DNA of 33,042 nt, taken from IMG/VR virus record IMGVR_UViG_3300031227_000234, positions 1 through 33,042 of that record; one strand, written 5' to 3'. This DNA is from a virus. This document shows positions 1 to 22,755 of the stretch, piece after piece. Below the pieces are notes generated by a model, which was given only the letters and a program-made list of their open reading frames with translations, searched no databases and was not told where the DNA came from. Every line of letters starts with the position of its first letter. Within the stretch, counting starts at the first letter, position 1. The position numbers were made by a program, and so were the translations under genes.

Positions 1-71
1 AAATATCTAAAAAGTTTAGCGTTAGTAGACAATCAATAAGTTTAATATTATCTGGAAAACGCTGGATTTAA
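1..71 (+). CDS. HNH endonuclease, C-terminal end only (cut by window edge)
   Basis: The first 71 bases read in frame (from base 3) as the last 22 residues of a protein ending in ISLILSGKRWI, then TAA. They are identical to the end of the HNH endonuclease at 1380-1757, so this is the tail of a second copy of that gene whose body lies left of the window. The visible part is the helix-turn-helix-like DNA-contacting end, not the nuclease core. Whether the missing part is intact cannot be seen. Confidence 0.7.
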   Translation, partial: ISKKFSVSRQSISLILSGKRWI

Positions 72-101
72 CGCCAGAGCCTCTATGCTTATTTATTTAA
101 A
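1..101 (+). repeat. Direct repeat, copy 1 (HNH gene 3' end and flank)
   Basis: Bases 1-101 match 1687-1787 exactly and diverge at base 102. The match covers the end of the HNH coding sequence plus 30 bases after its stop. The left limit is outside the window, so the full repeat is longer. Identity past the stop codon points to a recent duplication or gene conversion of the endonuclease cassette rather than selection on the protein alone. Confidence 0.9.
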
Positions 102-3144: not shown

Positions 3145-3561
3145 ATGAATCCAGATAATGTGAATAAAAAGAAAAATAATAGAATATGTGAAGAATGTGG
3201 AAATAATTATTTATCTTTTAGTTATAAAGCAAAATATTGTGATGGGTGTAAGTTAATTGTTAAAAGACGAAAGCATAAGGAATATACTAAGAAAAAAAGA
3301 AGAGAGAAGCGACTCTCTCAGGAATTAAAATGTGAAATTTGTGGTGCTGATATTCGTGATATTAAATATGCTAAAAAATATTGTTCAAAATGTAAAAGTT
3401 TGGTAGCTATAACAAGAAGTAAAAAATATTATTCAGATAATATAGATAAAATAAGTATTCGCCAAAAAGAATATGATAGTAAACCAGAAAATAAAGATAG
3501 ACATAGGATAATTGCTCGAGAATCAGCAAGGCGTAAACGTGAAAGAGATAAGTTAAAATAA
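3145..3561 (+). CDS. Basic protein with two zinc fingers (138 aa)
   Basis: There are two four-cysteine clusters, CEECGNNY...CDGC near residues 15-35 and CEICGAD...CSKC near residues 65-85. Each is followed by a strongly basic stretch (KRRKHKEYTKKKRREKR, and RKRERDKLK at the end). The layout suggests a DNA- or RNA-binding protein with repeated zinc-finger plus basic-helix units. Similar arrangements occur in the DNA-reading parts of phage homing endonucleases, but no nuclease core is present here. It ends just before the large structured-RNA candidate, so any promoter for that RNA would lie inside the end of this gene. Confidence 0.6.
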   Translation: MNPDNVNKKKNNRICEECGNNYLSFSYKAKYCDGCKLIVKRRKHKEYTKKKRREKRLSQELKCEICGADIRDIKYAKKYCSKCKSLVAITRSKKYYSDNIDKISIRQKEYDSKPENKDRHRIIARESARRKRERDKLK

Positions 3562-3576
3562 TTGTCTATTTAAAAT

Positions 3577-4073
3577 ACTAGATGTGAGTGGAATAGCTAG
3601 GGCTATATCGGTTTATTACTAATTAGTTCCTCCTGTGAAGTTATTTCTAGTACTTTAAGTAGATAATAAAATTGTTTATTGAGAATCTGACGAGCCTCAC
3701 AGCCCGCTAGGTAAAAAATAATTGTAGGAGTAGTAGGCATTACAGTGCTAAAATCCGAGAATCCTAGGGTAGAAAGAAGTGACTGCTAAACTGTAAATAA
3801 ATGCAGGAGAGCTTTCTAGGGGTGGACAAGCCAGTAAATTATTTGAGCTAGCTGGAATATACGTGATGACAGATCGTGGGGACAGGCTCTCAGTAAATAA
3901 TATTGTTCATTATCACTAATCAATCAAAAATAGCTTATAAGCAAAATATGAAAAAATATGGAGATAGCGGACAGCACATGGCTAAAGCTTACCTCCTAGG
4001 GCATTGAATGCTGACTAAAGGGCATTGAATGCTGACTAATATGTTTAATAATTTAGCAGTGAAAAATTCTAGT
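3577..4073 (+). ncRNA. Candidate large structured RNA (about 500 nt)
   Basis: This gene-free stretch is richer in G and C than its surroundings and can form many helices. They include a closing pair joining its two ends (ACTAGA 3577-3582 with TCTAGT 4068-4073), a hairpin at 3593-3606 (ATAGC/GCTAT), a long-range pair TGTGAG 3583-3588 with CTCACA 3696-3701, CCGCTA 3704-3709 with TAGCGG 3965-3970, and GAGAGC 3807-3812 with GCTCTC 3886-3891. No ORF of note crosses it on either strand. Size, phage setting and closeness to a tRNA array recall the large ornate phage RNAs (ROOL, GOLLD). I could not match it to either by eye, so the family is open. Confidence 0.55.
3999..4040 (+). repeat. Tandem 21-base repeat, two copies
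   Basis: Two adjacent units, 3999-4019 and 4020-4040, identical except for the last base. Each contains a small hairpin (GCAT, TGA loop, ATGC). They lie near the 3' end of the structured-RNA candidate. Confidence 0.9.
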
Positions 4074-4137
4074 CCTTGATTGATTGGCGATAGTGAATAA
4101 TTGTAAGATAAAGTTAATAATAATTAAAATAAAAATT

Positions 4138-4951: not shown

Positions 4952-5092
4952 TTAATCATTTTTTATTTTAAAAGTTTTTCTATCTCCGTATTCTGCTACT
5001 TTACCAGGATTATAGTTCTTAACTGGAGTCAACCAGCCGACAACGCGACTATAAACTATACATTCTTGTCTCTTTTTTTCGATTGGGGCCAT
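4952..5092 (-). CDS. Glycyl-radical mini-protein resembling the NrdD C-terminal end
   Basis: This 46-residue frame was too short for routine calling. It contains YSRVVGWLTPVKNYNPGK followed by AEYGDRKTF. The pattern Y-S-R-V-V-G-x-L-x-P-V-x-x-x-x-x-G-K-x-x-E-x-x-x-R-K-T-F is that of the C-terminal glycyl-radical loop of class III (anaerobic) ribonucleotide reductase. Gly19 is the position that would carry the radical, and one Cys (C11) precedes it. The rest of the enzyme, some 600 residues, is absent here. It could be a free-standing radical domain that works with a separate NrdD body, or a spare part for a damaged enzyme as YfiD is for pyruvate formate-lyase. The gene starts with ATG after an AT-rich leader and sits at the end of the tRNA operon, just before the bidirectional terminator. 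Confidence 0.7.
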   Translation of the reverse strand: MAPIEKKRQECIVYSRVVGWLTPVKNYNPGKVAEYGDRKTFKIKND

Positions 5093-5115
5093 AATTTTAT
5101 GATTAATTATTAATG

Positions 5116-5186
5116 TCAGGATAGAATGAATCGAACATTCGTCTCACGGATCCAAACCGCGTATAATGCCATTATAAGATATCCTG
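5116..5186 (-). tRNA. tRNA-Pro (TGG)
   Basis: Full cloverleaf: 7-bp acceptor CAGGATA/TATCCTG, T-arm GAATG-TTCGATT-CATTC, anticodon loop TTTGGAT. No encoded CCA. Last gene of the array in the direction of transcription. Confidence 0.92.
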
Positions 5187-5192
5187 TGTTAG

Positions 5193-5264
5193 TCGAAGTA
5201 GTAGGACTCGAACCTACAGCCAGCTGGATGTAAACCAGCCACTCTACCATTGAGTTATACTTCG
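5193..5264 (-). tRNA. tRNA-Val (TAC)
   Basis: Acceptor CGAAGTA/TACTTCG, anticodon stem GCTGG/CCAGC around loop TTTACAT, T-arm TGTAGG-TTCGAGT-CCTACT region, A73. U34 could read all four GUN codons. Confidence 0.93.
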
Positions 5265-6327: not shown

Positions 6328-6356
6328 AGTATAACATATAAAAAATAAAAAGTAAA
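6328..6356 (-). promoter_or_regulatory. Possible promoter of the GIY-YIG gene
   Basis: On the minus strand TG-T-TATACT forms an extended -10 (6328-6336), 27 bases before the ATG. The -35 (TTACTT, 6351-6356) is weak at a 17-base spacing. It would let the endonuclease be expressed apart from the tRNA operon. Confidence 0.4.
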
Positions 6357-6400
6357 TAACTGATACCCACGTGTTTCCGGCTACACTAACTCTGCTTTTG

Positions 6401-6473
6401 TCGACACGGTAGGACTCGGACCTACAACCTCTTGGTTCGAAGCCAAGTGCTCATCCAGTTGAGCTACGTATCG
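6401..6473 (-). tRNA. tRNA-Arg (TCG)
   Basis: Acceptor CGATACG/CGTGTCG, anticodon stem CTTGG/CCAAG around CTTCGAA, A73. The T-loop begins TCC rather than TTC. Reads CGN by U34. Confidence 0.9.
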
Positions 6474-6477
6474 TTTG

Positions 6478-6549
6478 TGGGGATAGAAGGAATCGAACCT
6501 ACATCTTCTGTTTAAAAGACAGTTACTCTAGCCATTGAGTTATATCCCC
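6478..6549 (-). tRNA. tRNA-Lys (TTT)
   Basis: Acceptor GGGGATA/TATCCCC, anticodon loop CTTTTAA, T-arm GTAGG-TTCGATT-CCTTC, A73. Near copy of the adjacent tRNA-Lys (CTT). Confidence 0.93.
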
Positions 6550-6560
6550 ATGTTTTTTTG

Positions 6561-6632
6561 TCGGGACAGAAGGAATCGAACCTACATCTTCTGTTTAAGA
6601 GACAGTTACTCTAGCCGTTGAGTTATATCCCG
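6561..6632 (-). tRNA. tRNA-Lys (CTT)
   Basis: Acceptor CGGGATA/TGTCCCG, anticodon loop CTCTTAA. Differs from the neighbouring tRNA-Lys (TTT) at five positions, two of which keep the first acceptor pair (G-C to C-G). This marks a tandem duplication with an anticodon change. Confidence 0.93.
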
Positions 6633-7368: not shown

Positions 7369-7441
7369 AGCTCCTGATCGGCTTCGAACCGATAACCTTC
7401 CGCTTACAAGGCGGATGCTCAACCAGTTGAGCTACAGGAGC
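7369..7441 (-). tRNA. tRNA-Thr (TGT)
   Basis: Acceptor GCTCCTG/CAGGAGC, anticodon stem TCCGC/GCGGA around CTTGTAA, T73. Sole Thr tRNA; U34 would read ACN. Confidence 0.94.
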
Positions 7442-7447
7442 TATTTG

Positions 7448-7530
7448 TGCATACTGATGGAGTCGAACCACCCGAGTCCGAAGACAACTGGTTTACAGCC
7501 AGTCCCGCTACCCCTACGGTATAAGCATGC
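7448..7530 (-). tRNA. tRNA-Tyr (GTA)
   Basis: Long variable arm as in bacterial tRNA-Tyr, acceptor GCATGCT/AGTATGC, anticodon stem ACTGG/CCAGT around CTGTAAA, A73. Confidence 0.92.
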
Positions 7531-7546
7531 TTAATATTTACTGAGG

Positions 7547-7617
7547 GGTGGTCGTGGAGAATCGGACTCCAGTACATGGGACCACAACCCATTGCTCTAC
7601 CACTGAGCTACGGCCAC
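7547..7617 (-). tRNA. tRNA-His (GTG)
   Basis: Anticodon stem ATGGG/CCCAT around TTGTGGT, C73 as HisRS expects. The base before G1 is T, not the usual G-1, so the extra guanosine may have to be added after transcription. T-loop begins TCC. Confidence 0.9.
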
Positions 7618-8495: not shown

Positions 8496-9710
8496 TTAAC
8501 CTTTTATCACAGCGAGAGGACTAAGCTCTACAAGTATTTCAACAAGGTCGGATTGATTACGCATAACATCTTCTATCGGCTTATAAGCTCCTGGAGCTTC
8601 ATCCAAATCTTTTGAACCACGTATAGAGTGGAGTATTCCCTGATCATCTAGATTTTTAGTTTCTTCTTCTAGATTCAATTCTCTTTCTGCTTGTTTTCTC
8701 CCCATTTTGCGACCAGCCCCGTGGGAACAAGATTTAAAACTATCAACATTGCCCCTACCACGAACAATATAAGATTTTGTGCCTTGAGAACCAGGTATAA
8801 TCCCAATAGTGTCGGCAGAAGCGAGAGTAGCACCTTTCCTATGAACCATAACATTTTCTTTGAAGTGATTTTCAAGTTTTGCATAATTGTGAGCTATGTT
8901 AATTATTTCTTCAAAATTACACTGAATATTATCTACTGCATCATAAATGTTTTTATAAAATATTTCCTTAACTCTATCCATCATTAACTTTCTATTAGCA
9001 AGGGCGAACTCTACACAATAATTCATCTCTCTGATATAATTTTGTCCCTCTTCGCTATCTAATGGAAGAAAAGCTAAGTCATATTCTTTAGGAACTGAAC
9101 TATGCCATTTTTCATTTAACTCTTTAGCTAATTTATTGTAATGGTCAGCTACTTGCTTGCCTAAATTACGAGAACCACTATGGATCATTATCCAAATATG
9201 TCCGTCATTTCCTTTTTGTATTTCTATAAAATGATTACCACCTCCTAGAGTTCCAATAGATATTAAAGCATTATTATATTCTTGTTGAACTATTGAATTA
9301 TATTTATCATTCCAATTATGAATTTCTTGCCAATCAAACATATCTGCTACTTCTGGCATTAACTTTTCATCTTGTGCTTTTTTATGTTTATTAAACCCTA
9401 CTGGCACAACTTTTCTAATTTCTCCCATTATCTTTTTAAGTGTTTCTGTATTAATATCAGTTAGGCTAGTCTTAACAGCGCACATACCGCACCCGATATC
9501 AACTCCTACAATTGAAGGAATTATTACATCTTTTGTAGCTAAAATAGTTCCTATCGGACAACCAAATCCAGCGTGATTATCTGGCATTATAGCTATATGC
9601 TTAAATACAAATGGAAGTTCTGCTAAATTTTTTATTTGTTCCATAGCACTATCTTCTACATTATTGCTCCATATCTTAACTAAGTTTTTCCCTTCATTAT
9701 AAATTTTCAT
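8496..9710 (-). CDS. rtcB: RNA-splicing ligase RtcB
   Basis: RtcB joins RNA ends bearing 2',3'-cyclic phosphate or 3'-phosphate to 5'-hydroxyl ends, using GTP and Mn2+. At 404 residues the protein has the usual bacterial length. Visible motifs are DNHAGFGCPIG (44-54), GVDIGCGM (69-76, metal ligands D71 and C74), GGGNHF (156-161), HSGSR (177-181), AHNYA (273-277), PGSQGT (306-311) and SHGAGR (329-334), where H330 is the histidine that takes the guanylate. The C-terminal PLAVIKG is normal. It stands next to 26 tRNAs, so its likely phage role is repair of tRNAs cut by host anticodon nucleases. Its start is 6 bases from the end of the upstream gene, which suggests co-transcription. Confidence 0.96.
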   Translation of the reverse strand: MKIYNEGKNLVKIWSNNVEDSAMEQIKNLAELPFVFKHIAIMPDNHAGFGCPIGTILATKDVIIPSIVGVDIGCGMCAVKTSLTDINTETLKKIMGEIRKVVPVGFNKHKKAQDEKLMPEVADMFDWQEIHNWNDKYNSIVQQEYNNALISIGTLGGGNHFIEIQKGNDGHIWIMIHSGSRNLGKQVADHYNKLAKELNEKWHSSVPKEYDLAFLPLDSEEGQNYIREMNYCVEFALANRKLMMDRVKEIFYKNIYDAVDNIQCNFEEIINIAHNYAKLENHFKENVMVHRKGATLASADTIGIIPGSQGTKSYIVRGRGNVDSFKSCSHGAGRKMGRKQAERELNLEEETKNLDDQGILHSIRGSKDLDEAPGAYKPIEDVMRNQSDLVEILVELSPLAVIKG

Positions 9711-18176: not shown

Positions 18177-18425
18177 ATGCCAAACGGTAAAAAACAAAGT
18201 AGCGAGCCAGAGTGTAAAAAACAATTTAATAGAACTGTAGCGAAAACAGGAAAGTGGAGAGGAAAAACTCCAGATAAATATATTAAGTATCAGTCTCCTA
18301 AAAGAAATAAAGTAATAACCTTAATGGGTAATGATAAAGGTATTAGTTCTAGAGAACAAAAAAAGATTTATAAAGAATTTCAGTTCAAAAAGAAAAAAAA
18401 GCACGATAAAGAAGAAGATATGTAA
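18177..18425 (+). CDS. Basic hypothetical protein (82 aa)
   Basis: A Lys-rich protein without hydrophobic core segments (MPNGKKQSSEPECKKQFNRT, KTGKWRGKTPDKYIKYQSPKRN, ending EFQFKKKKKHDKEEDM). It is likely disordered or nucleic-acid binding. Its start overlaps nothing and lies 5 bases after the metallopeptidase stop. Its own stop codon forms the foot of a 15-bp RNA hairpin (18423-18500). Confidence 0.55.
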   Translation: MPNGKKQSSEPECKKQFNRTVAKTGKWRGKTPDKYIKYQSPKRNKVITLMGNDKGISSREQKKIYKEFQFKKKKKHDKEEDM

Positions 18426-18500
18426 TCTTCTATCCCATCAGCGTAAGTTGGTGACAGGAAAACAGTCCATCATTATTTATAATGGTGGGATAGAAGATTA
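18423..18500 (+). ncRNA. Long hairpin element after 18177-18425
   Basis: A 15-bp perfect stem (18423-18437 with 18486-18500) encloses a 48-base head that has an inner hairpin, CATTA/TAATG (18471-18475 and 18480-18484). No T run follows, so it is not a standard terminator. It is contiguous with a second structured stretch at 18511-18657. Confidence 0.6.
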
Positions 18501-18510
18501 ATTGATTTAA

Positions 18511-18657
18511 CTTCCAGCGTATAGAAACTCTATATTAAGACTTGTTGTAATATACAAAGTCTAACCCCCAGCTCATAGAGTAAAGAAACTGGAAGAAGCT
18601 AATATTTATATCCTTAAAAGAAATATTAGTATCTGGATAACTAAATGTTGGGGGTTA
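18511..18657 (+). ncRNA. Candidate pseudoknotted RNA element (about 150 nt)
   Basis: The helices nest as CTTCCAG 18511-18517 with CTGGAAG 18589-18595, inside which CTCTAT 18528-18533 pairs with ATAGAG 18575-18580 and AGACTT 18538-18543 with AAGTCT 18557-18562. AACCCCCA 18563-18570 pairs outward with TGGGGGTT 18649-18656, a pseudoknot. A 9-bp hairpin CTAATATTT/AAATATTAG (18599-18607, 18621-18629) has a loop TATCC that can pair with GGATA (18635-18639), a second pseudoknot. No ORF occupies the region. It could be a free RNA or the leader of the gene at 18716. Confidence 0.55.
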
Positions 18658-18690
18658 AGTTAATTAATTGATAATAGTAAAAATTGTTCC

Positions 18691-19142
18691 TTAAAACCTG
18701 AAGTCAAGTTATGTTATGTTATGTCAAAATGTTATGTTGTTATATAAAAAATATTTAACTTGTAAAGATGATAAAGATACTTTATCTTATCCTTGTAAAA
18801 TTATTACAGATGGAAAAGATACGAATGATTATAATGGAGATAAATTAGTAGATTTTCAATTTATTCAAGCTAATTTAAGAAGTTTAACTGGAAGAATATT
18901 GACGATTATCGATGCGTCAATAACAGATAGTAATCAGAATAAATGTGTTAAAGACTTAGTTAGAGGAGAGTTTATGCACGAGTTTGAAGCGTTAGGAGAT
19001 TTAATGTTCGATAAACAAAGAATAGAGAGAACAATGAATGGATTTTATACAAATGGTATTGATCCAGAAATTATTACTGCCAAAGAAGCATTAGGAGCTT
19101 AATTAATTAAAATAAAAACATTAAGTTGACTTCAGATTTTAA
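18691..19142. repeat. Gene-enclosing inverted repeat 1
   Basis: The arms 18691-18711 and 19122-19142 pair at 19 of 21 positions, with core CTGAAGTCAA/TTGACTTCAG. They enclose exactly one gene (18716-19102). Confidence 0.8.
18716..19102 (+). CDS. Hypothetical protein (128 aa), paralogue of 19896-20300
   Basis: The stretch LTGRILTIIDASITDSNQNKCVKDLVRGEF (about residues 57-86) matches LGEILTIIDAVIVDEKQNKSVKDLIKATI in the product of 19896-20300, so the two share a helical domain. The first 20 residues (MLCQNVMLLYKKYLT...) have no match there and overlap a run of ATG-rich repeats (atgttatgttatg), so the start is uncertain. It lies inside a long inverted repeat and follows the pseudoknotted RNA candidate. 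Function unknown. Confidence 0.6.
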   Translation: MLCQNVMLLYKKYLTCKDDKDTLSYPCKIITDGKDTNDYNGDKLVDFQFIQANLRSLTGRILTIIDASITDSNQNKCVKDLVRGEFMHEFEALGDLMFDKQRIERTMNGFYTNGIDPEIITAKEALGA

Positions 19143-19197
19143 AAAATAAAATGGGCTATAAAGGTATCGATTGCTTTATATGTAAAAAATAAATTAT

Positions 19198-19761
19198 ATG
19201 TCACGTATCAAGGGAAAGAAAAATCCTAATATGGCTCGTTTTGGTAATACTAATTCTTTAGGTCGCATTCAAACGCAAGCTACTAAAGATAAAGTAGGAA
19301 ACGCACACAGAGGAAAAATTGTTTTACAAGCTACTAGAGATAAACTAAGCAAAGCCAATTTAGGTAATAAAAATCCTCGTGGTATGCTTGGTAAAAAACA
19401 AACGCAAACTACTAAGTATAAAATGCATCAGTCTAAGCTAGGAGATAAAAATAATAATTGGAAAGGTGGTATAACGCCAATAAATGATACAATAAGACAT
19501 AGCATTGAGTATGATTTATGGCGTAATGCAGTATTTACTAGAGATAATTTTACTTGCCAAAAAACAGGGATTAGTGGGGGAGAATTACAAGCACATCATA
19601 TTAATAATTTTTCTATATTTTCAGATTTAAGATTTGCCATAGATAACGGTATTACTTTATTAAAAAAATCGCATATAGAATTTCATAAAATATACGGTTA
19701 TAAAAACAACACTAAAGAACAATTAGAGGAATTTCTATTAGATGGTCCTCAAACGCAATAA
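19198..19761 (+). CDS. HNH homing endonuclease with NUMOD3-type repeats
   Basis: The N-terminal 85 residues consist of short repeats (RIQTQATKDKVGNAHRGK, LQATRDKLSKANLGNKNP, KKQTQTTKYKMHQSKLGDKN) of the NUMOD3 type, which lie in the DNA groove. Residues 108-165 hold the HNH core: RNAVFTRDNFTCQ (C120), AHHINNF (H133, H134), AIDNGITLLKKSHIEFH (N150, H159, H163). It is a free-standing homing endonuclease of 187 residues with the DNA-reading part in front. It lies between the first enclosed gene and a broken tRNA-like sequence, so that locus may be its insertion target. It is unrelated in layout to the HNH gene at 1380. Confidence 0.88.
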   Translation: MSRIKGKKNPNMARFGNTNSLGRIQTQATKDKVGNAHRGKIVLQATRDKLSKANLGNKNPRGMLGKKQTQTTKYKMHQSKLGDKNNNWKGGITPINDTIRHSIEYDLWRNAVFTRDNFTCQKTGISGGELQAHHINNFSIFSDLRFAIDNGITLLKKSHIEFHKIYGYKNNTKEQLEEFLLDGPQTQ

Positions 19762-19767
19762 TAATCC

Positions 19768-19842
19768 CGGTGTATGCCGAAGTAATGGTTTAGATGCCAT
19801 TAGGTAGTAATGGTTTATAAGGGTTCGATTCCCTTGCTACCA
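19768..19842 (+). pseudogene. tRNA-like remnant (acceptor/T-arm minihelix)
   Basis: Bases 19803-19842 form a perfect acceptor-like stem GGTAGT/GCTACC, T-arm AAGGG-TTCGATT-CCCTT and a trailing A, as in the upper half of a tRNA. The preceding 35 bases do not give a normal D-arm or anticodon arm. A 12-base repeat (AGTAATGGTTTA, near 19781 and 19806) suggests an internal duplication. It may be a broken tRNA gene or a tRNA-like 3' end used for RNA processing. Confidence 0.55.
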
Positions 19843-19855
19843 TATATTTAGTTCT

Positions 19856-20334
19856 TTTAAATTTGCAGTCAAGTTAAATTTAGTCAAGTAAAGTTATGCC
19901 AAACAAAGATCAAACAGGTCCTAAAGGAAAAGGTCCTAAAACAGGTAGATTAGGTTCTATAAATAAAAAAGTCATGTTCAAAGAAAATGAAGTCAATAAA
20001 GACGTAGCAACATTATGGAATGCTATATATAGCGAAATATATGAATATAAGCAACATAAGTTAGGTGAAATATTAACTATAATAGACGCAGTTATAGTTG
20101 ATGAAAAACAAAATAAAAGCGTAAAAGATTTAATTAAAGCAACTATTTATAATGGAGACAATATGGATTTTAGAATAGCCTCTTGGTTATTTTGGTTAAT
20201 TGATAACAATGATATTACTCATAATAATTCAAGATCAAGTGTTCCATTTAGATATACTGATGAATTAAGAAATCCACAATTAGAAGCTTATAAACAATAA
20301 TAAACTAATATTATAAGTTGACTGCAAGTTTAAA
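19856..20334. repeat. Gene-enclosing inverted repeat 2
   Basis: The arms 19856-19876 and 20314-20334 pair at nearly all of 21 positions (one G-U, one G-G), with core TTGCAGTCAA/TTGACTGCAA. They enclose the gene at 19896-20300. The right arm ends 8 bases before the ATG chosen for the HU-like gene. Confidence 0.8.
19896..20300 (+). CDS. Hypothetical protein (134 aa), paralogue of 18716-19102
   Basis: It begins with a Gly/Pro/Lys-rich, probably flexible tail (MPNKDQTGPKGKGPKTGRLG). A helical domain follows with LGEILTIIDAVIVDEKQNKSVKDLIKATI, shared with the gene at 18716, and the protein ends in an aromatic stretch (FRIASWLFWLIDNND) and a hydrophilic tail. It may be a small virion or regulatory protein. 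It lies inside its own long inverted repeat. Confidence 0.62.
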   Translation: MPNKDQTGPKGKGPKTGRLGSINKKVMFKENEVNKDVATLWNAIYSEIYEYKQHKLGEILTIIDAVIVDEKQNKSVKDLIKATIYNGDNMDFRIASWLFWLIDNNDITHNNSRSSVPFRYTDELRNPQLEAYKQ

Positions 20335-20342
20335 TGAATTAT

Positions 20343-20636
20343 ATGAATAAAGATAATAATGAAAATAATTTTTTTAATAATTTAGCTATTGAAATTGGTA
20401 TTACAGATGTTAAAGTTGTTAGACAATTTTATTATGCTTTAGTAAGAACTTTATATAAAACATTAAAGAATAATAAAAAAGTTGAAATGCCTGATTGGGG
20501 AATATATAAAATTAAACCATTTAAGGCAAGAAGTGTTCATAATATTAATACTGGTGGTAAAATAGATGTACCAGCTACAAATACTCTTAGATTTGAAGTT
20601 GATTACAAATTAAAAGATAAGGTTAAAAATTTATAA
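20343..20636 (+). CDS. HU/IHF-like DNA-binding protein
   Basis: About 97 residues, close to the size of HU. The second half carries the family pattern: WGIYKIKPFKARSVHNINTGGKIDVPATNTLRFEVDYKLKDKV, matching the beta-arm (R-x-G-x-N-P-x-T-G-x-x-I-x-I-P in HU) and the final helix, although Asn replaces the arm-tip Asn-Pro. The N-terminal helices (EIGITDVKVVRQFYYALVRTLYKTLKNNKKVEMPDWG) fit the dimer body. It would bend and coat phage DNA. I favour ATG 20343 over 20334 because the longer start lies in the inverted-repeat arm. Confidence 0.8.
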   Translation: MNKDNNENNFFNNLAIEIGITDVKVVRQFYYALVRTLYKTLKNNKKVEMPDWGIYKIKPFKARSVHNINTGGKIDVPATNTLRFEVDYKLKDKVKNL

Positions 20637-20637
20637 T

Positions 20638-20708
20638 AGCGGGATGGAGAAGAGGCATCTCGACGGTCTCATAAGCCGTAGTCCTGGGTTCGATTCCCAG
20701 TCCTGCCA
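20638..20708 (+). tRNA. tRNA-Met (CAT), partly initiator-like
   Basis: Anticodon stem ACGGT/GCCGT around CTCATAA, D-stem GAGA/TCTC, T-arm CTGGG-TTCGATT-CCCAG, A73. Positions 1 and 72 are A and C, unpaired, and A11-U24 is present; both are initiator-like, but the three G-C pairs of the initiator anticodon stem are not complete. It starts 1 base after the HU-like gene and is the only tRNA on the plus strand. Confidence 0.9.
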
Positions 20709-20745
20709 CAAACAATATTCTTTAACAATTTACGCTAAGCATAAC

Positions 20746-20778
20746 GGGCAGAAGTCGTCTACGTGACGCAGAAGTCCC
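20746..20778 (+). promoter_or_regulatory. Symmetrical hairpin in the leader of 20788-21564
   Basis: GGG and CCC at the ends and CGTC/GACG at the tip (20756-20759, 20765-20768) enclose a perfectly symmetrical internal loop CAGAAGT opposite CAGAAGT. Such purine-rich loops form tandem A-G pairs, as in protein-binding RNA motifs. Confidence 0.6.
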
Positions 20779-20787
20779 ACAAAATCT

Positions 20788-21564
20788 ATGCTAAAAAATA
20801 ATTACGAAGTTGATATATTAATCAACGGAAAGAGAGTACAAGAATACTTACAAAAAGATAAAATGTATATTGAAGGAAGAAAAGGTACTAAGTATTCAAT
20901 TAAAATCAATAATAATTCATGGGAAAAAATAATTGCTATTCCTACTGTTGATGGCATTTCAGTCATTAATGGAAAGTTAGCAGATTATAATTCTACGGGA
21001 TATATTATTAATAGCCATTCTTCAATTACTATTGATGGATGGAGAAAAAACGATAAAGAGGTGGCTGAGTTTTATTTCTCAAACACGAAAGACTCTTATG
21101 CGAGAAGAGTCGGAAAGAATGGTAACCAAGGTGTTATTGGAGTTGCTATATATAAAGAACAAAATGAAGAAAGAAATTTTATAAAAAGAATAACAGAAAT
21201 AGAACCTATATATAGAGAAGTTCCAATGTGGTATAATGGTAGTATTAGTAATATTACTACTAATATAGATTCATGTTCTAGTATAACAACTGCTTCTTGT
21301 TCATTATCAGCATTAAAATCATCAGCATCACAAGTAAATTGTTGTTTTAAATCACAACAAGTTGGTACTGGATGGGGAGAAATTAAACATTCTGAGGTAA
21401 TCAATTCTTCATTTAATAAAGATAATAGTTCTTTAACAGTGTTTGAGATATTTTATAACACAAGAAAAGAGCTTGAAAAACAAGGGATAACTTTTAATAA
21501 GGTTACATATATTAGTTCACCAAAAGCGTTCCCTAATGAGTATTGTGAAACACCAAGAAGATAA
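20788..21564 (+). CDS. Conserved phage protein with beta-rich N-domain (258 aa)
   Basis: The N-terminal part reads VDILINGKRVQEYLQKDKMYIEGRKGTKYSIKINNN, then RIIAIPTVDGISVINGK-like strands, GYIINSHSSITIDGWRKNDKEVAEFYFSNTKDSYA and QGVIGVAIYKEQ. This series (G-R-x-G-x-x-Y-x-I-x-I-x-N, V-D-G-x-S-V-x-x-G-K, I-x-G-W-R-x, F-x-F) recurs in phage and bacterial proteins of unknown role. The C-terminal part from about residue 190 has GTGWGEIKHSEVINSSF and FEIFYNTRKELEKQGI. A Ser/Cys-rich linker joins the two. It is probably secreted or virion-associated, but this is not shown. A good terminator follows. Confidence 0.7.
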   Translation: MLKNNYEVDILINGKRVQEYLQKDKMYIEGRKGTKYSIKINNNSWEKIIAIPTVDGISVINGKLADYNSTGYIINSHSSITIDGWRKNDKEVAEFYFSNTKDSYARRVGKNGNQGVIGVAIYKEQNEERNFIKRITEIEPIYREVPMWYNGSISNITTNIDSCSSITTASCSLSALKSSASQVNCCFKSQQVGTGWGEIKHSEVINSSFNKDNSSLTVFEIFYNTRKELEKQGITFNKVTYISSPKAFPNEYCETPRR

Positions 21565-21608
21565 TTAATTAATAAATAACGTTTAGCGTAAGTTGTTAGA
21601 GAGTAAAT

Positions 21609-21634
21609 AAGCTTCACTTTTGAAGCTTTTTTGT
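21609..21634 (+). terminator. Intrinsic terminator
   Basis: AAGCTTCA (21609-21616), loop CTTT, TGAAGCTT (21621-21628), then a T run. It ends the 17335-21564 unit. Confidence 0.88.
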
Positions 21635-21654
21635 TTTTTTAGCGACAAAACGGT

Positions 21655-21671
21655 GTTACTTATGCTATAAT
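21655..21671 (+). promoter_or_regulatory. Extended -10 promoter
   Basis: GTTACTTATGCTATAAT, with TG one base before TATAAT (21666-21671). A partial -35 (GCGACA, 21642-21647) sits 18 bases upstream. It drives 21735 and the head genes. Confidence 0.78.
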
Positions 21672-21734
21672 GTTATATAGAATGATATAAATTATAACTT
21701 TCTATACATAGTTTAATATAAAATTTTTAAAAAT

Positions 21735-22208
21735 ATGGATAAACCAATGAATAAATCTAAGAATTTAGTATCAAAAGTAAAATCTTCTGAAAGAAAAACA
21801 GAACTTGAAGGAAGTTTAGATGATTTAAATAACAGAGAAGGAGCTATTAATAGTCAAGAAGTTATTAGTAAGAACAAAATAAACGAAATGAAAGGTAAAA
21901 TAATCCAAGAACTATTTAAAATCTTGGAGAATTTTGGCGTGGATCCATCAGACTTAAATTCTATTAATAAATTTTTATCAGAATTAGAGAAGACACAACC
22001 AGATTTATTAAAGTTATTTGAATTAACATTCAATGATTTAATTAAAGAACCAGAAAATAACGCTAATACTATACCAGCAACACCACCTACTACTGGATTA
22101 CCTGAAGCTATGCCTAATACTAGTACAGCTCCAACACAACCAATTGGAAACGAAGGATTAATGGATAAATATAAAAATTTGGGTCAAGAAACAATGATGC
22201 CAAGATAA
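21735..22208 (+). CDS. Hypothetical protein with Pro/Thr-rich tail (157 aa)
   Basis: The first 60 residues are charged and helical (SKVKSSERKTELEGSLDDLNNREG). Residues about 60-115 form a compact helical part (KIIQELFKILENFGVDPSDLNSINKFLSELEKTQPDLLKLFE). The tail is rich in Pro, Thr and Asn (TIPATPPTTGLPEAMPNTSTAPTQPIG) and probably disordered. It is the first gene after a promoter and ahead of the packaging genes; a role in head assembly is a guess. Confidence 0.58.
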   Translation: MDKPMNKSKNLVSKVKSSERKTELEGSLDDLNNREGAINSQEVISKNKINEMKGKIIQELFKILENFGVDPSDLNSINKFLSELEKTQPDLLKLFELTFNDLIKEPENNANTIPATPPTTGLPEAMPNTSTAPTQPIGNEGLMDKYKNLGQETMMPR

Positions 22209-22755
22209 TTATATATAGCTAAGAGAAGTCAAGAACGGTATAAAAAAATATGATTGATAAACCGTTAGAAGTACTAGAAGCCAGATTCCCAGAATTTTTA
22301 GTGTGGCTTAGAGAGATTAGTCGATATGCTCAAGTAGAAAAATTTATTCTACTAAAGGACTATAAAGAAAGTGTAAGGGTTAGTTTCTTTACTAAGGAAA
22401 ATGAATATAGCGTTAGTGTGAGACGACCACATGAATTTAGCGAACACATTGTTCAAAGAGATGTTAATGATAGAATTATTGGTGAGAGCAATGCTCCTAT
22501 TGATAATGGGTATTTAGGGGGCGGAGTGTCTACTAGAAAGCCTAGAGCTGGAGAAGACTGGAGACGAGGAAACGATTTAGCTGACGGACCTTACTGCAAG
22601 GAAACTTGGAACAAAATTAAAAATGATATTGTTTCATATGAACTTGTTAGAGTCATTCGTCCAGTAGATCCAACCTGTGAACCAGTTAATGGACCACTTG
22701 TTAAAGAAGTAAAATAATTAACACCATTCTTTGACTTCTCTTAATTATATATAAT
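22208..22755. repeat. Gene-enclosing inverted repeat 4
   Basis: The arms 22208-22239 and 22723-22755 pair over about 30 positions, including a 13-bp perfect core (TAAGAGAAGTCAA with its complement), a G-U pair, a bulge and two mismatches. They enclose the gene at 22250-22717. The right arm ends 3 bases before the next ATG. Confidence 0.85.
22250..22717 (+). CDS. Conserved phage protein near the packaging genes (155 aa)
   Basis: The sequence contains RFPEFLVWLREISRYAQVEK, a beta stretch KESVRVSFFTKENEYSVSVR, and a conserved-looking end YLGGGVSTRKPRAGEDWRRGNDLADGPYCKETWNKI. The last pattern (L-G-x-x-x-S-x-R-K-P-R-A-G-E-D-W-x-R-G-N-D-L-x-D-G-P) is typical of a phage protein found just upstream of terminase genes, with no known function. 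It lies inside the longest of the four enclosing inverted repeats. Confidence 0.68.
   Translation: MIDKPLEVLEARFPEFLVWLREISRYAQVEKFILLKDYKESVRVSFFTKENEYSVSVRRPHEFSEHIVQRDVNDRIIGESNAPIDNGYLGGGVSTRKPRAGEDWRRGNDLADGPYCKETWNKIKNDIVSYELVRVIRPVDPTCEPVNGPLVKEVK

Follow-up and report, generated by a model that had tools for sequence, protein, structure and literature searches.

Why should four genes of a phage each be enclosed by two stretches of DNA that are complementary to one another? The locus that raises this question lies in the IMG/VR record IMGVR_UViG_3300031227_000234, which was analyzed over its complete length of 33,042 bases (the window) and belongs to a tailed phage with a terminase gene and with genes that by appearance encode the portal and the capsid. 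A preliminary description, made from the window alone, had reported four arm pairs in the region 18691-22755 and had proposed that each pairs as the two ends of an mRNA around a single gene. The arm pairs are present at these four sites, those of unit 2 being longer than had been claimed (19846-19876 and 20314-20344), and exactly one gene lies inside each of them. The intervening genes, which encode an HNH protein (19198), an HU-like protein (20334), and a coiled-coil protein (21735), are outside and have no enclosing arms. The composition of the units is given below, where LT, C, and D denote the families of the enclosed proteins, and boxA is the sequence that loads the ribosomal RNA (rRNA) antitermination complex in E. 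coli (PMC10250234).

18686-18696, plus strand: boxA-like element of unit 1 (GTTCCTTAAAA), which deviates from GTTCTTTRAAA at one position
18691-18711, plus strand: 5' arm of unit 1 with the core AGTCAAG; its helix extends to the start codon region
18716-19102, plus strand: gene of unit 1, LT family, 128 amino acids, motif G[KER][VI]LTIIDASI.., no known domain
19122-19142, plus strand: 3' arm of unit 1
19846-19876, plus strand: 5' arm of unit 2, with the boxA-like GTTCTTTTAAA at 19851-19861, then N6, then GTCAAG
19896-20300, plus strand: gene of unit 2, LT family, 134 amino acids, paralog of the unit 1 gene
20314-20344, plus strand: 3' arm of unit 2, overlapping the start of the HU-like gene (20334)
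20716-20741, plus strand: 5' arm of unit 3, with ATTCTTTAACA at 20717-20727, one base off the γ-proteobacterial boxA GYTCTTTAANA (PMC5725501)
20788-21564, plus strand: gene of unit 3, family C, 258 amino acids, distant homologs in rhizobial jumbo phages
21580-21605, plus strand: 3' arm of unit 3, with the anti-boxA TTAGAGA at 21596-21602
21608-21635, plus strand: hairpin and T-run resembling an intrinsic terminator, directly 3' of the 3' arm of unit 3; a similar hairpin follows in the related contig L094
22205-22240, plus strand: 5' arm of unit 4, without boxA, core AAGTCAAG, then the conserved ACGGTA
22250-22717, plus strand: gene of unit 4, family D, 155 amino acids
22723-22758, plus strand: 3' arm of unit 4, ACC..TTGACTTCTCTTAATTATATA

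The 70 bases before and the 70 bases after every gene of the window were compared as possible duplexes. For units 1 to 4, the energies are -32.1, -34.8, -31.5, and -34.6 kcal/mol, respectively; mismatched pairs of window genes give a mean of -13.0 kcal/mol (standard deviation, SD, 4.8), and shuffling the flanks gave no pair at or below -31.5 kcal/mol in 1040. Flank pairing at p<0.01 was found for the four unit genes and for one open reading frame (ORF) call inside the tRNA array (7419-7592), and for no others. When whole units were folded, the 5' arm directed 83-92% of its pairing probability to the 3' arm. The three G-U pairs that had been described in the third arm set are there, but 23 of its 23 positions are paired, not 22. 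The matching changes beside the shared AGTCAA core (CTGAAGTCAA/TTGACTTCAG and TTGCAGTCAA/TTGACTGCAA) are real, and in units 1 and 2 the genes are paralogous while the arms covary.

The same enclosing layout, as judged from sequence, recurs in dozens of other phages. Relatives were drawn from metagenomic viral contigs, and the numbers of family members are lower bounds: at least 36 non-redundant members of LT (30 of 36 enclosed by arms of their own sequence), at least 29 of D (12 of 29 with arms), and at least four of C (all four with arms). The armed units hold genes of 85-280 codons, and their arm sequences are wildly divergent between members. An apparent exception is the LT unit of L081, in which the 3' arm lies about 110 bases farther, behind an apparent second small reading frame. 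Further, two boxA-footed stalks were found in L188 (about 4956-5235) and L094 (about 6344-6612); they appear to enclose structured non-coding RNA and no gene, and an Rfam search of the enclosed stretches gave no match.

Covariation was assessed in 32 units (22 LT and 10 D) aligned on the GUCAA core. Changes on both sides of a pair occur in 113 cells versus 32 in shuffles, and the covariation score is 0.685 versus 0.171 in shuffles (SD 0.019), falling to 0.085-0.125 when the register is slid by 1-3 bases. At several helix positions, all four Watson-Crick pairs are used. Standard pairs fill 93.8% of the cells versus 66.5% in shuffles, an absolute percentage that is biased upward because the arms were initially picked by pairing; this bias alone cannot explain the drop upon sliding the register or the diversity of pair types. 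A swap test on raw duplex energies, in which the native combination was the best of all swaps in 16 of 36 LT and 9 of 29 D members, is clear but noisier because GC-rich members pair strongly with anything, and the register-anchored count is cleaner.

The mismatches point in the same direction. Helix detection scored G-U and A-C equally, and across the three families it yielded 50 G-U against 19 A-C oppositions (28:12, 17:7, and 5:0; pooled p about 2e-4 by normal approximation). A DNA repeat would give the two in equal numbers; therefore the excess of G-U argues that the arms were selected as RNA and not as DNA repeats. The element is also directional, with boxA always on the 5' side, the orientation constant, and the arms not being exact repeats. 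The proposal that mRNA ends pair around a whole gene, as opposed to transposon repeats, is thus borne out by both the covariation and the G-U excess. The covariation check that had been suggested in the preliminary description came out strongly positive, and the arms do not diverge uncompensated.

Three further features, a boxA at the base of the arm, a likeness to the leader-trailer helices of precursor rRNA (pre-rRNA), and an occurrence in three protein families, go beyond that description. The boxA of rrn operons, GTTCTTTRAAA, stands at the start of many 5' arms; the published γ-proteobacterial consensus is GYTCTTTAANA (PMC5725501). This element was found in 11 of 24 LT flanks versus 8 of 440 other genes on these contigs, and in 21 of 46 armed units of the three families versus none of 23 unarmed family members (Fisher 4e-5). 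Usually, six bases separate it from the GYYAA core (range 5-8). When boxA-N4-9-GYYAA was searched for freely, the hits before ORFs with a strong downstream partner were LT, C, and D genes only. On the trailer side, the anti-boxA TTAGAGA occurs in 6 of 46 armed units versus 13 of 817 other genes. We regard it as probable that the element of the phage arms is a boxA.

The closest counterpart of this layout was found at the ends of bacterial pre-23S rRNA. Two relatives of the phage terminase lie in genome bins, one of them (L107) in a bin of 0.8 Mb, and the probable host phylum, that of G002, has small genomes (0.4-2 Mb), which suggests candidate Patescibacteria. Several 23S leaders of this phylum (L117, L118, L122, L130, and L222) have their boxA at the start of the leader-trailer helix or within it. 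For instance, in the pre-23S rRNA of L118 the boxA helix is formed by GTTCTTTAAAAACTGGATAG with CTATCCAGTACTTTAGAGAAC, and the arms of phage L091 are, for comparison, GTTCTTTAAAATCTGGAGTT with AACTCCAGTTTTTAGAGAAG. The complex loaded at the E. coli boxA has been proposed to keep the leader tethered until emergence of the trailer, and the leader-trailer helix, which contains an RNase III site, is essential for active 30S subunits (PMC10250234). The phage units have a long covarying leader-trailer helix around the unit, as rrn operons do. In the rRNA operon leader (PMC10250234), boxA precedes the long helix around the transcribed unit or sits at its base, and a boxA next to the 5' arm is recognizable in 21 of 46 armed phage units; the stem is variable and covarying in both. 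Pairing of boxA itself with the trailer, as in the phage, is seen in several bacteria of the probable host phylum. The units differ in holding single protein genes (and apparently two non-coding RNAs), in a phage-specific GUCAAG core, and in the lack of rRNA. Since they enclose protein genes and not rRNA, they may be rrn-leader-like in their working but are not an rrn leader. A lead is that the arms copy the 5' end of 23S rRNA itself (GUCAAGUUA); GTCAAGTAAG is present at one inspected 23S 5' end only (L109).

The comparison shows a covarying helix of sense-strand RNA, a boxA-like element at a fixed distance from the core, and an equal arrangement in bacterial pre-23S rRNA. From these findings, we lean slightly towards a model in which the arms are wrappers resembling those of pre-rRNA, on which Nus factors load and which an RNase III-type enzyme trims. 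The wrapper would be built as the ends of bacterial pre-rRNA are, with a leader boxA at the foot of the 5' arm, a complementary 3' arm in the trailer, and a helix of 15-30 bp closing around one gene. As the leader exits RNA polymerase, host NusB-S10, together with NusA and NusG, would bind boxA; the bound Nus factors would keep the polymerase processive and hold the 5' arm near the exit channel, with the gene looped out. Synthesis of the 3' arm would then allow the helix to close and boxA to be re-paired. The closed helix would be a substrate for an RNase III-type enzyme, whose action would release the gene as a short mRNA with its ends paired and protected. RNase III-type processing of the arms is compatible with the findings and is a prediction of the model, as are the binding of Nus factors and a benefit to the mRNA. 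More tentatively, we propose that phages of small-genome bacteria have a reusable wrapper copying the host pre-rRNA ends, by which selected phage mRNAs, and some non-coding RNAs as well, would be transcribed with the rRNA antitermination complex and trimmed in the manner of pre-rRNA. In a bolder form of this proposal, the closed ends would be joined into a putative circular mRNA by the phage RtcB (window 8496-9710).

Several points weigh against this explanation. A recognizable boxA is absent in 25 of 46 armed units, including unit 4 of the window, and boxA is a short, AT-rich motif. The GUCAAG core with its fixed spacing is phage-specific. In 287 genomes of the probable host phylum, the exact composite boxA-N6-GTCAAG was not found, and therefore the units were not simply copied from such genomes. 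Further, the boxA of E. coli 16S rRNA is not part of the helix. Finally, the assignment of the host depends on two contigs in bins of metagenome-assembled genomes, of which L107 is one.

The main alternative, which we consider somewhat unlikely, is a fold-back switch between the 5' and 3' untranslated regions (UTRs), as in hok and icaR, where closure of the mRNA would control its translation or stability and the likeness to boxA would be secondary or mark the binding of another factor. Pairing of the two UTRs of one mRNA is what is seen in S. aureus icaR, where the 5'-3' UTR helix is cut by RNase III (PMC3868564), and the covariation of the phage arms equally indicates that pairing is selected. 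The AGTYR repeats in LT leaders, possibly a binding site, would also fit such a switch. However, the helix usually stops 8-69 nucleotides upstream of the start codon and covers no ribosome site, with only unit 1 reaching the start, and no pairing of the 3' arm with the Shine-Dalgarno or start region, as in hok and icaR, was found. The closing of the message at the start site, one of the roles considered in the preliminary description, thus fits poorly. A switch would be in line with a contrast in family D (L190-L208), where a Shine-Dalgarno site is present in 2 of 12 armed versus 10 of 17 unarmed members; this contrast could mean that the wrapper aids translation, or only that the hosts differ. 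The boxA at a fixed spacing and the stalks around non-coding RNA are left unexplained by a fold-back switch. The known examples share with the phage units the pairing of the ends of one mRNA across a whole gene (PMC3868564); they differ in that the pairing is short, involves the Shine-Dalgarno site of one gene, has no boxA, and is not a reusable wrapper across unrelated families.

It is highly improbable that the arms serve as pairs of binding sites for proteins, or as a promoter and a terminator that match by chance, with the pairing having no role. The GTCAAG/CTTGAC core hardly varies, and TTGACT is similar to a -35 box, but outside the core the arms vary freely with complementarity alone being kept, and all four Watson-Crick types occur at single positions. 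Hardly tenable, and contradicted by the data, is the notion of gene cassettes, mobile or invertible, with the arms as their terminal repeats at the level of DNA: although LT genes occur in very different neighborhoods, D is missing at the corresponding position of L094, and C is replaced in L004 by another armed gene, the arms vary between and within genomes with their complementarity kept (so that both this reading and paired protein sites are disfavored by covariation), near-identical shared repeats were not found, the mismatches are G-U and not A-C, the ends are non-equivalent with boxA always 5', no clear target duplication is seen by eye at one empty site (the gene D site of L094), and no recombinase accompanies the units.

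Returning to wrappers of the pre-rRNA type, we know of no described phage system in which single genes are held in gene-spanning covarying RNA helices, nor of one with boxA at the foot of such a helix. Partial parallels exist. A boxA in the leader of a protein-coding mRNA is known from E. coli suhB and a Citrobacter ParE-like toxin gene, where it was shown experimentally to recruit Nus factors and where repression involves Rho-dependent termination (PMC5725501); unlike the phage units, these leaders have no 3' partner arm. In lambdoid nut sites, a phage boxA also lies in an RNA leader (PMC10250234). The boxB hairpin for protein N comes after this boxA, and there is neither a trailer arm nor enclosure of a single gene. 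The extended start-associated sequences (ESAS) of cluster K mycobacteriophages are imperfect inverted repeats at a subset of phage genes, retained with the gene family (PMC3203893). However, both 17 bp repeats of ESAS are upstream with a spacer of 4-13 bp (PMC3203893), whereas the arms described here flank the gene, and the ESAS arrangement was not found in the units.

If the wrapper model is true, some phages handle selected mRNAs as pre-rRNA, which would be a new means of insulating one gene within a long transcript and would put Nus factors and boxA to a new use outside rRNA and lambdoid nut sites. How distant RNA ends are helped to pair by the rRNA antitermination complex could then be studied on the units as a natural minimal substrate. 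They are small and modular, and the claim is directly testable in laboratory strains. They are also accompanied by three protein families without a Pfam or NCBIfam match.

Searches of the enclosed LT, C, and D proteins against Pfam, PHROG, and NCBIfam gave nothing convincing. LT is a new family of small proteins with an invariant G-LTIID core. Its predicted structure is a helical bundle with a confident pLDDT of 86.6, and D is predicted to be a mixed alpha-beta protein (pLDDT 82.8). Foldseek gave no significant match with either model, and a PDB profile search with LT found no match. A second structural comparison with LT gave middling helical matches only, including T7 tail chains at Z 4.5-5.7, values that a common arrangement can also give. 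No LT member was confirmed in GTDB genomes. Between the helix and the start codon, LT leaders contain repeats of the pentamer AGTYR (for instance, in L102, L103, and L104, and at 18703-18727 of the window); two or more copies precede 23 of 36 LT genes versus 1 of 544 other genes, and the repeats are a candidate binding site. An LT-like protein with a weak match (E 0.4) is encoded in an actinobacterial prophage (gene 78 of Mycobacterium phage prophiGD57-2; L219, 1414-1782), where the leader has AGTTAAGTCAAGTCGAG and no partner arm lies within the stretch read.

Homologs of gene C occur in the rhizobial phages Phosso, Atu_ph07, and RHph_I1_18 (L216-L218). No stalk around C was found in these jumbo-phage homologs, and therefore the wrapper is not tied to the C protein everywhere. 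Elements like GGCAGNNAAGNCC are present there in the leader of C or of the preceding gene, and they resemble the GGCAGAAGTC..GCAGAAGTCC leader of the window gene C. In L004, the different gene that stands in place of C (184-711) has strong flanking pairing of its own, and the same terminator-like hairpin is found on both flanks.

The window has no nucleotide match among isolated phages. It contains 26 tRNA genes, and an Rfam search of the window found tRNAs only. A Shine-Dalgarno-like site was found in none of its 56 ORF calls. One further gene encodes an enzyme of RNA metabolism, which could possibly serve tRNA repair or be connected to the enclosed RNAs:

8496-9710, minus strand: RtcB RNA ligase (Pfam E 5e-117), adjoining the 25-tRNA array

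Nested hairpins, for instance CTAACCCCCAGC..GTTGGGGGTTAAG, are abundant in the non-coding stretches 18423-18665 and 3560-4080 of the window, which are probably structured RNAs; an Rfam search of these two stretches gave no meaningful match. The first approximately 100 bases of the record (window 1-100) recur at about 1689-1790, at the end of an HNH gene, which could be due to a gene copy or to an assembly effect. Finally, positions 600-3800 of L094 (minus strand) hold an array of small genes spaced by near-identical intergenic elements (TTGACTTGACCGCTTTTCTTATAAATTGCGGTTAAGC), which is another gene-separating repeat system.

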